Shown here: positions 22,236-54,947 of the stretch, piece by piece
Position numbering within the stretch: position 1 is the stretch's first letter
Layout of the letters: every line of letters starts with the position of its first letter
From: Vicinamibacterales bacterium
GTDB taxonomy: Bacteria > Acidobacteriota > Vicinamibacteria > Vicinamibacterales > UBA2999
DNA length: 64,000 nt
Assembly: GCA_030680175.1 (NCBI GenBank)
Contig: JAUXWO010000075.1
Coordinates: 1-64,000, forward strand
Direction of reading: 5' to 3'
Translations under genes and position numbers: made by a program
The notes under the pieces: model-generated
The model's input: only the letters and a program-made list of their open reading frames with translations
Database searches by the model: none
Told to the model about the DNA's origin: nothing

Positions 22236-22859
22236 GTGGCCCCCAAGACCGAGATCGATCGGGAGCTGATGCAACTCGAGTCGGACATGAAGCGGCTCGA
22301 GGGTGAGTACACCATGTACTTCGCCGGCCGGCTGCCGCGTCCGCCGTGGGAGTCCCGGTCGCGGGTCGATGCGCTCGTGAAGCGGATCGATCGCCTGCAC
22401 ATCCACAACACCGCCGAGCGCTTTCGCTTCAGCACGCTGCAGACGCGCTACTCGACGTTCTGCGATCTCTGGGAGCGCGCGCTGCGCGCCAAGGAAGAGG
22501 GGCGGCCGATTCCCGGGCGCCTCCGGGCGGGAGGGGCGTCCGCGCCCGAGGCGCCGGCGGCGCCGGTCACGCCGGCCGAGGCGGCCCGCGGGCGCAAGGA
22601 CGACCTGATGCACGTCGCCAGCTTCCGCAACCCCGCGACGGAGCCGGACAAGGTGAAGGAGCTCTACGAGCGCGTCGCCGAAGCGCGGCGCGCCACGGGC
22701 GAGCCCGCCGTGCCCTTCGAGCGGTTCCGCGATCTGGTGCAGCACCAGGTCGCCAAGCTCGGGCAGGGCGGCGAGGTCGCCTTCAAGGTGGCGCTCAAGG
22801 ATGGCAAGGTGAACCTGACGTCGCGGGCCATCAAGGCCAGGGATGACGAGGGCGGATGA
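22236..22859 (+). CDS. MXAN_5187 C-terminal-domain-like protein
   Basis: A 207-aa protein starting at GTG. Residues 1-90 form a helical region (ELMQLESDMKRLEGEYTMYF, then RIDRLHIHNTAERFRF and LQTRYSTFCDLWERAL) that matches, from memory, the domain annotated after Myxococcus MXAN_5187. A Pro/Ala-rich linker spans residues about 95-125. The C-terminal segment ends VAFKVALKDGKVNLTSRAIK, a small beta-rich tail also seen in that family. In Myxococcota related proteins occur near type IV pilus or signalling genes, but their role is not established. It is coupled to the preceding hypothetical gene. Confidence 0.6.
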   Translation: MAPKTEIDRELMQLESDMKRLEGEYTMYFAGRLPRPPWESRSRVDALVKRIDRLHIHNTAERFRFSTLQTRYSTFCDLWERALRAKEEGRPIPGRLRAGGASAPEAPAAPVTPAEAARGRKDDLMHVASFRNPATEPDKVKELYERVAEARRATGEPAVPFERFRDLVQHQVAKLGQGGEVAFKVALKDGKVNLTSRAIKARDDEGG

Positions 22860-22940: not shown

Positions 22941-23144
22941 TCAGACGATGGTGACGTTGCCGGCCTGGGGGCCCTTCGGACCATCAACGATTTCGAATTC
23001 GACCGGCTGGCCCTCCTCGAGGGAGCGGAAGCCCGAGCCCTGGATCGCCGAGTAGTGCACGAAGACATCGCTGCCTCCGTCGCGCTCGATGAACCCGTAG
23101 CCCTTGGCGTTATTGAACCACTTGACCTTGCCTGTGATGCGCAT
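22941..23144 (-). CDS. csp: cold-shock domain protein
   Basis: A 67-aa single cold-shock domain with both RNA-binding motifs, KGYGFIE (residues 14-20) and VFVHYSAI (27-34). It should bind single-stranded RNA or DNA, act as an RNA chaperone and oppose terminator hairpins. An AGGAAG ribosome-binding site precedes the ATG. The gene has an approximately 130-base leader between a near-consensus promoter and the ORF, and that leader contains an intrinsic terminator. This suggests autoregulation by attenuation. Confidence 0.97.
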
Positions 23145-23226
23145 CGTTCTTCTTCCTGGCTTGCTGTGGCGGAGCCACCTGACCGATCGAGTCCCGAATC
23201 ATCCACGGATGAGCCGGGGTCCTACA

Positions 23227-23273
23227 AAAAAAGGCCGCGCTCGCGGCCTTCCGCGTGTCCCTCGGGAGGGACC
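23227..23273 (-). terminator. leader terminator / attenuator upstream of csp
   Basis: Read on the minus strand, a 6-bp hairpin (23273-23258) is followed by a GC-rich hairpin with 9-base complementary arms (23251-23243 and 23240-23232) and seven T residues (23233-23227). This is a textbook intrinsic terminator, lying between the csp promoter and the csp start codon, 82 bases before the ATG. No other minus-strand gene lies upstream for it to terminate, so an attenuator or a short stable RNA is implied. Confidence 0.8.
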
Positions 23274-23281
23274 GCAACGGG

Positions 23282-23310
23282 ATGATATCGGCCCGCCATC
23301 CGGGTGTCAA
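23282..23310 (-). promoter_or_regulatory. near-consensus sigma70 promoter of csp
   Basis: On the minus strand TTGACA (23310-23305) and TATCAT (23287-23282) are separated by exactly 17 bp, the best promoter match in the window. Transcription would start near 23275, just before the two leader hairpins, and run towards csp. Confidence 0.8.
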
Positions 23311-23387
23311 TTGTCGAGTCCCCTTTCGCGTGCGAAACGGGGAGGTTTCTCCGAATCTTCGCCATCCTTCTTCCTGAGTGAGTGCCC

Positions 23388-25007
23388 ATGCGACGCGCAA
23401 TTCTGAGTGTTTCCGACAAGACGGGCCTCGTGGCCCTCGGCCAGGGCCTCGCGGCCCGTGGTTTTGAACTCGTGTCCACCGGCGGCACCGCGCGCGCCCT
23501 CGCCGACGCGGGGCTGCCCGTCGTCAACGTCTCGGACGTGACGGGATTCCCCGAGATGATGGACGGGCGGGTGAAGACCCTGCATCCGCTGGTGCACGGC
23601 GGCATCCTGGCGCGCCGCGATCACGACGAGGATCTGGCCGCGGCCCGTGCGCACGGCATCGGCCTGGTCGACCTCGTTGTCGTCAACCTGTATCCGTTCG
23701 TCGAGACGGCGGCGACGCCCGGCGTGGCGTTTCCCGATCTGATCGAGCAGATCGATATCGGCGGCCCGAGCCTCGTCCGGGCGGCGGCGAAGAACTTCCG
23801 CGACGTCCTCGTGGTCGTATCGCCCGAAGACTATGCCGGCGTGCTCGAGGCCCTCGACCGCGAGGACGGGCCGACGGTGGCGTTCCGCTTCGAGCTGGCG
23901 CGGAAGGCGTTCGCGCACACGGGCGAGTACGACACCGCGATTGCGTCGACGCTTGCGGATGTGTCGGTGGAGGGCGAGGCGTTCGTGCGCGAGGCGGGCG
24001 AGGTGTTCGCGCCGTCGCGCCTGCATGTCGACGCGCGCAAGATCCGCGACCTCCGCTACGGCGAGAACCCGCACCAGCCGGCCGCGTGGTACGCCGTCGG
24101 CGAGCCGGCGACCGGTCTTGGCGCACCGCAGGTGCTGCAGGGCAAGGAGCTGTCGTACACGAACCTGCTCGACCTCGACGCGGCCGCGCGCATCGTCCTG
24201 GAGTTCGACGAGCCGGCGGCCTCCGTCATCAAGCACACCAACCCGTGCGGCGCGGCCACCGGCGCGACGATCGCCGAGGCCTACGTGCGCGCGCGCGAAG
24301 CCGATGCCCTCGCCGCCTTCGGCGGCATCGTCGGGTTGAACCGCGCGATCGATGAGGACACGGCCCGGGCGATCGTGTCGACCTTCATCGAGGCGGTGAT
24401 CGCGCCCGGCGTCGACGAGGCGGCGCGGGCGATCCTGGCGGCCAAGGCGAACATGCGTGTCGTGGTGGCGGATGTGCGCGGCCTGGGCGAGACGGGCGGC
24501 GCCGCCATCTGGCGCCGGGACATGCGGTCGGTGCTCGGCGCGTTGCTCGTGCAGGAGCGCGACCAGGTGGTGGAGGCGCGGACGGCGTGGCCCGGCGAGG
24601 GGCTGACGGTCGTGACGAAGCGGCAGCCGACGGCGGCGGAGTGGCAGGCGCTCGGCTTCGCATGGCGCGTGATGGCGCACGTGAAGTCGAACACGGTGAT
24701 CTTCACCGACGCCGTGCGTACGCTGGCGGTCGGCGCGGGCCAGATGAGCCGCGTGGATGCGGTGAAGGTGGCCGCGGCGAAGGCCGCCGGCTGGAAGCTG
24801 GAGGAGGGCCAGCGCCCGCTGGCCGGATCGGTCGCCGCGTCGGACGCGTTCTTCCCGTTCCGCGACGGCCTCGACGCGGTGGCCGCGGCCGGCGCGACGG
24901 CGGTGGTGCAACCGGGCGGCTCCGTGCGCGACGCCGAAGTGATCGCGGCGGCCGACGAGCACGGCCTGGCGATGGTGTTCACGGGGAAGCGGCACTTCCG
25001 GCACTAG
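23388..25007 (+). CDS. purH: bifunctional AICAR transformylase / IMP cyclohydrolase
   Basis: A 539-aa enzyme for the last two steps of IMP synthesis. The N-terminal MGS-fold cyclohydrolase domain (residues 1-200) shows SVSDKTGLV, STGGTARAL, and GRVKTLHPLVHGG. The C-terminal transformylase domain contains RYGENPHQ, IKHTNPCGAA and the terminal GKRHFRH. I prefer the ATG at 23388 to the GTG six bases upstream because MRRAILSVSDKTG is the family start. It stands alone, divergent from csp, with which it shares the upstream region. Confidence 0.97.
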   Translation: MRRAILSVSDKTGLVALGQGLAARGFELVSTGGTARALADAGLPVVNVSDVTGFPEMMDGRVKTLHPLVHGGILARRDHDEDLAAARAHGIGLVDLVVVNLYPFVETAATPGVAFPDLIEQIDIGGPSLVRAAAKNFRDVLVVVSPEDYAGVLEALDREDGPTVAFRFELARKAFAHTGEYDTAIASTLADVSVEGEAFVREAGEVFAPSRLHVDARKIRDLRYGENPHQPAAWYAVGEPATGLGAPQVLQGKELSYTNLLDLDAAARIVLEFDEPAASVIKHTNPCGAATGATIAEAYVRAREADALAAFGGIVGLNRAIDEDTARAIVSTFIEAVIAPGVDEAARAILAAKANMRVVVADVRGLGETGGAAIWRRDMRSVLGALLVQERDQVVEARTAWPGEGLTVVTKRQPTAAEWQALGFAWRVMAHVKSNTVIFTDAVRTLAVGAGQMSRVDAVKVAAAKAAGWKLEEGQRPLAGSVAASDAFFPFRDGLDAVAAAGATAVVQPGGSVRDAEVIAAADEHGLAMVFTGKRHFRH

Positions 25008-35905: not shown

Positions 35906-35980
35906 TGGGGCGTGGCCAAGCGGTAAGGCGCGGGGCTTTGGACCCCGTATTCGAAGGTTCGAATCCTTCCGCCCCAACCA
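35906..35980 (+). tRNA. tRNA-Gln (anticodon TTG)
   Basis: A 75-nt cloverleaf with acceptor pair TGGGGCG/CGCCCCA, D-arm GGCCAAGCGGTAAGGC, anticodon loop CTTTGGA giving TTG, and T-arm GGTTCGAATCC. The 3' CCA is encoded. It reads CAA and, by wobble, CAG. Confidence 0.98.
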
Positions 35981-52405: not shown

Positions 52406-52482
52406 GCTGGCGTAGCTCAGTCCGGTAGAGCGGCTGATTTGTAATCAGCGGGTCGGGGGTTCAAATCCCTCCGCCAGCTCCA
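52406..52482 (+). tRNA. tRNA-Thr (anticodon TGT)
   Basis: A 77-nt cloverleaf with acceptor GCTGGCG/CGCCAGC, D-loop AGCTCAGTCCGGTAGAGC, anticodon loop TTTGTAA giving TGT, T-arm GGGGGTTCAAATCCCTC and encoded CCA. It reads ACA and ACG by wobble. Confidence 0.98.
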
Positions 52483-52622
52483 CGCGGGCGCGGGCGCGGC
52501 TTCTGCGGGGGCGGGCACTCTTCCACGGCAGAACGACGAAGGCAGCGCAGTATCACCGCGCCGCGGCGAGGCTCGACGGGGGTGTCGCTCGGGGCGGGTA
52601 TTTCGGGACGGAACGTCGGTTT

Positions 52623-52709
52623 GGGCAGGTGGCGGAGCGGTCAATCGCAGCAGACTGTAAATCTGCCGTCCTAGTGGCTACGGAGGTTCGAATCCTCCCC
52701 TGCCCACCA
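52623..52709 (+). tRNA. tRNA-Tyr (anticodon GTA)
   Basis: An 87-nt class II tRNA with acceptor GGGCAGG/CCTGCCC, anticodon loop CTGTAAA giving GTA, a long variable arm (CCGTCCTAGTGGCTACGG), and a T-arm GAGGTTCGAATCCTC. CCA is encoded. Confidence 0.98.
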
Positions 52710-52717
52710 TTCGACTC

Positions 52718-52820
52718 GCCCTGAGCCTTCGGCTCAGGGCTCGCTCATGGCAAGCCTTGAATGGCAAGCCCTGATGGGCGAGGGAAGAAGTCGGGGCTCG
52801 CTGATGGCAAGCCCTGATGG
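52718..52820. repeat. hairpin and triple ATGGCAAGCC repeat between tRNA-Tyr and tRNA-Gly
   Basis: A perfect 10-bp stem of GCCCTGAGCC (52718-52727 and 52731-52740, 3-nt loop) follows tRNA-Tyr. Then come three ATGGCAAGCC units at 52747, 52761 and 52804. The remaining bases to the tRNA-Gly gene show no ORF. The hairpin may mark RNA processing or termination, or belong to a REP-like repeat. Confidence 0.65.
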
Positions 52821-52902
52821 GGGAGCGTCGAGGAGCGAGGGCGCGCTGACAGCGGGCTTGCCCGCCGAAGCGCCGAGTGAGCGCCAGAGGCGAGGCGCGA
52901 AG

Positions 52903-52977
52903 GCGGGAGTAACTCAGTGGTAGAGTCACAGCCTTCCAAGCTGTTGGTCGCGGGTTCGATCCCCGTCTCCCGCTCCA
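52903..52977 (+). tRNA. tRNA-Gly (anticodon TCC)
   Basis: A 75-nt cloverleaf with acceptor GCGGGAG/CTCCCGC, D-loop AACTCAGTGGTAGAGT, anticodon loop CTTCCAA giving TCC, T-arm CGGGTTCGATCCCCG, and CCA encoded. It reads GGA and GGG by wobble. Confidence 0.98.
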
Positions 52978-53166
52978 GTGTTCGCCCGGCCGTCCGGCGG
53001 CACGGCTGAGGGCGGCGTCGGGATGCGCCGGGTGCGCCGTAGGGCGTGCCGGGTGTTCGGGCCGGCTTTCGGGTGCGCGCGTGCGGACCCTGAGGGCGGG
53101 ACGGCGGGGGCCGGCGCGGCCCGCGCCAGAGTGCGGGCCGACACGTCGGCCGGGGCAAGAGCGAAG

Positions 53167-53242
<76 letters not shown>

Positions 53243-53323
53243 GGATCGTTAGAACGGCAATCAACCTCCGACGCCGGCACGGGGCCGGGTCGTCAGTCCG
53301 CGAGAAGCGAGCGAACTCAAGTC

Positions 53324-54523
<1,200 letters not shown>

Positions 54524-54613
54524 CACGCGTTCGCCGTGGACAGGGTGCCAGTGCGCGGGAGGCCGCTTCCGCGCACTGGGCCGTGACCGCCGGCAACGGC
54601 TGAGACGTGAGCC

Positions 54614-54763
54614 ATGAGAGACATCATTCAGATGGCGTGTGGTGAGTGCAAGCGCCGGAACTACAGCACCACCAAGAACAAGAAGAAGACGACGGAGCGG
54701 CTCGAACTGAGCAAGTACTGCCGGTTCTGCCGGAAGCACACGCCGCACAAGGAACAGAAGTAG
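54614..54763 (+). CDS. rpmG: 50S ribosomal protein bL33 (zinc form)
   Basis: A 49-aa protein too short for many gene finders. It has CGEC (C9, C12) and CRFC (C36, C39), the zinc-ribbon ligands of the C+ bL33 type, with a lysine-rich middle ([20 protein letters not shown]). The sequence start [12 protein letters not shown] is normal. Located between tuf and tRNA-Trp/secE as in many bacteria. Confidence 0.95.
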
Positions 54764-54784
54764 GCCCGGCGTTGCCGGGCGCTC

Positions 54785-54850
54785 CCGGCTGTCAGCGACC
54801 AGCGATCGGCGCGTGAGCCGGGAGCCAGCCGCGGAGAGCCGAGAGCCAGG
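54785..54850. repeat. AGCCGGGAGCCAGCC-type repeat before tRNA-Trp
   Basis: The rpmG to tRNA-Trp gap carries CAGCGACCAGCGATCG and GAGCCGGGAGCCAGCC-like units ending GAGAGCCGAGAGCC. It belongs to the same AGCCGA family as the runs at 6968, 8143, 39838 and 43026. Confidence 0.6.
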
Positions 54851-54871
54851 GCGGGCGAAGCGAGTCAGTTC

Positions 54872-54947
54872 AGGCCAGTAGCTCAACTGGTAGAGCACCG
54901 GTCTCCAAAACCGGGGGTTGGGGGTTCGAGTCCCTCCTGGCCTGCCA
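54872..54947 (+). tRNA. tRNA-Trp (anticodon CCA)
   Basis: A 76-nt cloverleaf with acceptor AGGCCAG/CTGGCCT, D-loop AGCTCAACTGGTAGAGC, anticodon loop CTCCAAA giving CCA, T-arm GGGGTTCGAGTCCCT, and an encoded 3' CCA. Located between rpmG and secE, the usual place. Confidence 0.98.

Follow-up and report, generated by a model that had tools for sequence, protein, structure and literature searches.

A probable transcription attenuator in the leader of a cold-shock gene of Vicinamibacterales

Layout of the csp leader

We analysed a 64,000-nt stretch of DNA from a bacterium of the order Vicinamibacterales, phylum Acidobacteriota (the window), in which csp, encoding a cold-shock domain protein, lies on the minus strand between a convergent gene whose product carries an MXAN_5187 C-terminal domain (22236-22859, plus strand) and the divergent purH (23382-25007, plus strand). 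Neighbouring sequence similar to that of the window is also found beside csp in many relatives. Elsewhere, the window carries five clustered tRNA genes (52406-54944, plus strand) and a further tRNA at 35906-35977.

Reading the minus strand from 23310 to 22941, we found the promoter, hairpin 1 (H1), the terminator hairpin with its seven T and the start of csp where a preliminary description had placed them (Table 1). H1 begins at or near the predicted transcription start (about 23275), and the terminator is a GC hairpin of 8-10 bp overall with an 8-bp core (AAGGCCGC/GCGGCCUU). The seven-U run is the predicted 3' end of a terminated RNA that, counted from the predicted start, would span about 23275-23226, in agreement with the length of about 50 nt proposed earlier.

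Table 1. Features of the csp leader in the window and the evidence for each.
Feature	Position	Strand	Evidence
Sigma70-type promoter, TTGACA-17-TATCAT	23282..23310	-	11/12 consensus matches; conserved in nearly all orthologous leaders
-35 box, TTGACA	23310-23305	-	sequence; 17-nt spacer to -10
-10 box, TATCAT	23287-23282	-	sequence
H1, GCGGUCCCU-CCCG-AGGGACACGC	23253..23275	-	fold; family z; compensatory changes in distant families
Terminator hairpin, AAGGCCGC-GAGC-GCGGCCUU	23231..23250	-	fold; 101/116 orthologues; loop GAGC
Seven-U run	23226..23232	-	sequence; 6-9 T in 101 orthologues
Hairpin 3 (H3), read-through mRNA only	23193..23218	-	fold; post-terminator z over the order
Hairpin 4 (H4), GUGGC-UCC-GCCAC, read-through region	23166..23178	-	fold; kept by all 16 aligned relatives
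Shine-Dalgarno-like AGGAAG	23152..23157	-	sequence; AGGAA beside ATG conserved in nearer relatives
csp, 67-aa cold-shock domain protein	22941..23144	-	CspB relatives; CspE identity; ATG at 23144

A scan of both strands of the window returned a single promoter with at least 10 of 12 consensus matches, and it is this promoter that the csp leader terminator follows. Its 11 matches compare with 0.1 such sites expected from shuffles of 2.5 kb, none of ten whole-window shuffles produced a promoter and terminator pair, and shuffling the 166-nt region 5000 times gave a comparable terminator in 24 cases. The terminator is listed by our own scan and was not listed by a separate, simple terminator scan. 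From the predicted start to the U-tract, the RNA folds with -31.3 kcal/mol (z = -4.1 versus shuffles), and the full 131-nt leader is mildly unusual (z = -1.4). Since the full-leader value is only -1.4, the folding evidence rests on the 5' half together with conservation.

Two trivial origins were rejected. Chance is ruled out by the shuffles and by conservation, and the hairpin is not the terminator of a neighbouring gene, since purH upstream is divergent and the promoter sits between purH and the hairpin.

Conservation within and beyond the order

We compared 116 orthologous csp leaders from 15 families of Vicinamibacterales, through which the Csp orthologues are about 83-97% identical. Of these leaders, 108 retain a T-rich tract, with six or more T among eight nucleotides, and in 101 a perfect hairpin is followed directly by 6-9 consecutive T, with a median stem energy of -13.7 kcal/mol. 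In nearly all of these 101 leaders, the distance from the -10 box to the start of the T-run is 43-61 nt, and most exceptions have a longer stretch between promoter and terminator with the terminator retained. Extra sequence of this sort, sometimes with an extra hairpin, was seen in L034, L036, L046, L181, L184, L188 and L236. The fixed geometry in 101 of the 116 orthologues, together with the lack of room for another promoter in several genomes, strongly supports an attenuator in the csp leader, as first suggested for the window alone. Judged by this distribution, the layout is ancient within Vicinamibacterales.

Losses of the terminator are confined to family f3 (presumably Luteitalea genomes, with Luteitalea pratensis for one that is terminator-less), most or all of family f4 and scattered genomes; in one leader (L006), the stem is present and the T-run is broken. 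In f3 and most of f4, csp is present without a recognisable terminator. Hence, the terminator is dispensable.

To search whole genomes, we used a covariance model built from the window's subgroup of leaders. It found exactly one significant place in the window's own genome and one match each in 28 of 40 genomes, all 28 of which abut csp. Copies at other genes were not found with this model, the second match in the own genome having E = 0.23. Hence, the element is a csp leader and not a genome-wide family of terminators.

Besides the terminator, the leader keeps other helices. When families were compared, the H1 region folded better than shuffles (mean z -1.6), as did the stretch after the terminator over the order (mean z -1.65). 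Aligning all leaders with MAFFT left too many gaps for joint scoring of H1, H3 and H4, so subgroups were aligned instead. Among 16 close relatives, 98.7% of the paired cells hold standard pairs, with two-sided changes in only two pairs; H4 is present in all 16, with a GC to AU replacement in two. Among 19 distant leaders, two-sided changes occur in seven pairs versus 3.7 in shuffles, and pairing is lost when the partner is slid. These covariation counts support the helices, with the caveat that related rows inflate such counts. The sequence of H1 differs strongly between families, and an apical GGCGGGCC segment of H1 is common to several of them (seen in L011, L043, L048, L050 and L183); it is possibly a protein site.

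Outside this set, a strict terminator lies within 200 nt upstream of csp in 11 of 97 other csp loci, a count that includes two from Vicinamibacterales itself (L101 and L102); the background rate is 0.013 per 185 nt. In five loci from other classes of Acidobacteriota (L071, L078, L090, L111 and L155), one from Methylomirabilota (L108) and two from Gemmatimonadota (L133 and L134), the terminator lies about 60-115 nt upstream of the ATG; in several of these, a promoter-like stretch precedes it. Common descent is not visible in their sequences, and they may be convergent.

A further group of leaders, those of second csp paralogues in other families (L057-L062), has a distinct common motif, GUAGUCGG...CUCCGA, ahead of which two of them (L061 and L062) carry a GGCCUGG/CCAGGCC hairpin and four U. 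This motif looks like a second conserved kind of csp leader.

Read-through and what might set it

We asked whether csp is transcribed through the terminator. The distance from the U-tract to the ATG is at most 45 nt in 17 of the 101 leaders and 23-24 nt in five, and no promoter-like site with more than 7 of 12 matches was found downstream of the U-tract in any of the 101. Hence, several genomes leave no space for a separate downstream promoter for csp; in the others, such a promoter is unsupported by the sequence. The preliminary description would have been contradicted by transcription starting downstream of the hairpins, and both the scan and the short gaps point the other way. The same two results tell against a separate gene for an sRNA of about 50 nt with csp served by its own promoter further down. 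A promoter and a terminator alone do resemble a small RNA gene, but H1 also lacks the sequence conservation expected of a trans-acting RNA, and we regard this reading as barely credible. As read from the DNA, csp must be reached only by read-through of the leader terminator. A promoter followed by an intrinsic terminator, both ahead of csp, is the arrangement of an attenuator, and the csp leader is very probably one.

We looked for the known types of switch that could govern such a terminator. Pairing of an upstream segment with the 5' arm of the terminator was at shuffle level over the 101 leaders (mean z -0.02), and the sequence following the U-tract was no better than shuffles as an alternative partner for the terminator arm (mean z -0.15). 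A terminator/antiterminator RNA switch was rejected on the first of these values, the complementarity not exceeding chance. A leader-peptide attenuator was rejected as well: a translatable short ORF before the terminator was not found, a start with a Shine-Dalgarno sequence being present in 1 of 101 leaders. Rfam families gave no match in the csp leader even at a lax threshold, apart from chance-level ones; the cspA thermoregulator (RF01766) gave none up to E = 10, nor any in related loci at the gathering score. A Shine-Dalgarno sequence opened by cold was not indicated either, as its predicted median accessibility declines a little with cold, from 0.58 to 0.50.

With neither a leader peptide, nor an Rfam match, nor enrichment of an antiterminator, a classical RNA switch is unlikely. 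A self-switching RNA, whether a thermosensor or riboswitch that exchanges terminator for antiterminator or a leader-peptide attenuator, could draw on the H1 GCGG, which could pair with the terminator CCGC in the window's subgroup (z -1.3 in the window). Over the 101 leaders, such complementarity is at shuffle level, and we consider the reading very improbable. By default, the csp leader must, on its sequence, terminate transcription. Since a classical switch is unlikely, read-through would be set by a trans-acting factor or by none, the latter amounting to a fixed leak.

With a fixed leak, an unregulated, leaky terminator behind a strong promoter would give steady, low csp expression, and the short RNA would be waste or a mild decoy for Csp through its U-tail. 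In keeping with this, the csp leader has no alternative structure or recognisable sensor, and the hairpin and U-run are of similar strength across the 101 leaders. A weaker promoter would, however, do equally well, and the conservation of H1, H3 and H4 hints at a role beyond that of a valve. A leaky terminator as the whole explanation is unlikely.

We judge it similarly unlikely that the terminator answers to a factor or condition other than Csp, such as NusA/NusG, a ribosomal protein, the speed of the polymerase in the cold or a protein that reads H1. In favour, H1 has been retained despite lying clear of the terminator, and its apical GGCGGGCC recurs in several families; but no known binding motif was identified, and the strong divergence of H1 sequence between families speaks against this reading.

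Csp as the candidate factor, and known systems

The protein encoded by csp is itself of the kind that could act here. Among proteins of solved structure, bacterial CspB proteins match it best (E 7e-29), and over the domain it shares 64% identity with CspE of E. coli. As expected of a CspA-type protein, it aligns with CspB and CspE over 62-64 residues and has both RNA-binding motifs, KGYGFIE and DVFVHY; against the E. coli-type CspE equivalog of NCBIfam, it scored 105.9 bits, below the cut-off of 120. Its Y16, F28 and H30 stand at the positions of F17, F30 and H32 in CspE. These aromatic and histidine positions matter in CspE. In E. coli, antiterminator activity is known for CspA, CspC and CspE (PMC4347634), and CspD overproduction raises read-through, including at leader terminators such as tnaC and those of riboswitch leaders (PMC9765468). 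Hence, Csp is our leading candidate. Relief of the terminator by Csp would fit both E. coli Csp antitermination and the presence of the aromatic and histidine residues; we put it at a little short of an even chance.

We propose that polymerase would start at TTGACA/TATCAT and soon meet a strong intrinsic terminator, so that most transcripts would stop as an RNA of about 50 nt and csp mRNA would arise by read-through only. Csp or a Csp paralogue would bind the nascent leader and weaken the terminator hairpin. H1 might cap the RNA at its 5' end or serve as a platform for binding; H3 and H4 might shape the read-through mRNA. The terminator hairpin is predicted to strengthen from -16.2 kcal/mol at 37 degrees C to -21.7 kcal/mol at 15 degrees C. 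Being more stable in the cold, it would make csp harder to transcribe unaided, and melting by Csp would compensate: with enough free Csp, autogenous antitermination would give more csp transcription, offsetting the cold-stabilised hairpin. Against this account, positive feedback alone has no brake, autoregulation of csp elsewhere is often negative, the terminator is missing from f3 and most of f4, and its presence in the deeper classes is only sporadic (the 11 of 97 loci above).

Negative autoregulation is common among RNA-binding proteins, which we count for the opposite reading, that Csp would favour pausing or termination when it binds the leader, and that excess Csp would thus shut csp off. 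PDB record 3i2z likewise names a Csp-family protein 'RNA chaperone, negative regulator of cspA transcription'. In the cases tested, however, Csp-family proteins lowered intrinsic termination and did not raise it (PMC9765468), and we find negative feedback decidedly improbable.

A fuller version of the antitermination proposal would join autogenous Csp antitermination throughout the order, a large excess of the terminated RNA of about 50 nt, whose U-tail Csp can bind, as a decoy that meters free Csp, and independent versions of the circuit at the scattered csp-leader terminators of other Acidobacteriota, Methylomirabilota and Gemmatimonadota. We would rate this combination as rather improbable, if slightly less so than negative feedback. 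Overall, the attenuator reading is well supported, and Csp feedback appears a reasonable proposal.

If Csp does control the terminator, a cold-shock feedback circuit would be encoded in the DNA as one terminator, and the leader would offer a clean system for testing what Csp antitermination is for. The csp leader is also a candidate regulatory RNA for Vicinamibacterales, a large order of soil and water bacteria whose gene regulation has hardly been studied. In the open literature searched, no paper describes this element or reports an intrinsic terminator placed in the leader of a csp gene. Naville and Gautheret, in surveying premature terminators, make no mention of csp and state that hardly any attenuators from Acidobacteria have been assigned functions (PMC2965389). 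The csp leader is a new leader family with a type of mechanism that is already known.

Several known systems resemble it in part. The cspA thermoregulator (RF01766) of E. coli and Agrobacterium is likewise a structured cold-shock 5' UTR (Agrobacterium, PMC3738593), but it is a long fold of about 160-230 nt that acts on translation and stability, and the csp leader does not match it. In leaders of the Bgl/Sac (LicT) type, a promoter-proximal intrinsic terminator is relieved by an RNA-binding protein (PMC4347634), as we propose here; there, the antiterminator hairpin overlaps the terminator, whereas the csp leader has no enriched overlap. Transcription of csp genes is also stopped early in E. 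coli, in the 5' UTR or the ORF of cspB and cspG, but that termination is Rho-dependent (PMC7815308), whereas the csp leader has an intrinsic hairpin and U-run. Another is E. coli antitermination by CspA, CspC, CspE and CspD, with which the present case has in common the protein family and early intrinsic terminators as targets; the E. coli targets are other genes and sRNAs, whereas here the terminator lies in csp's own leader, where Csp is proposed to act.
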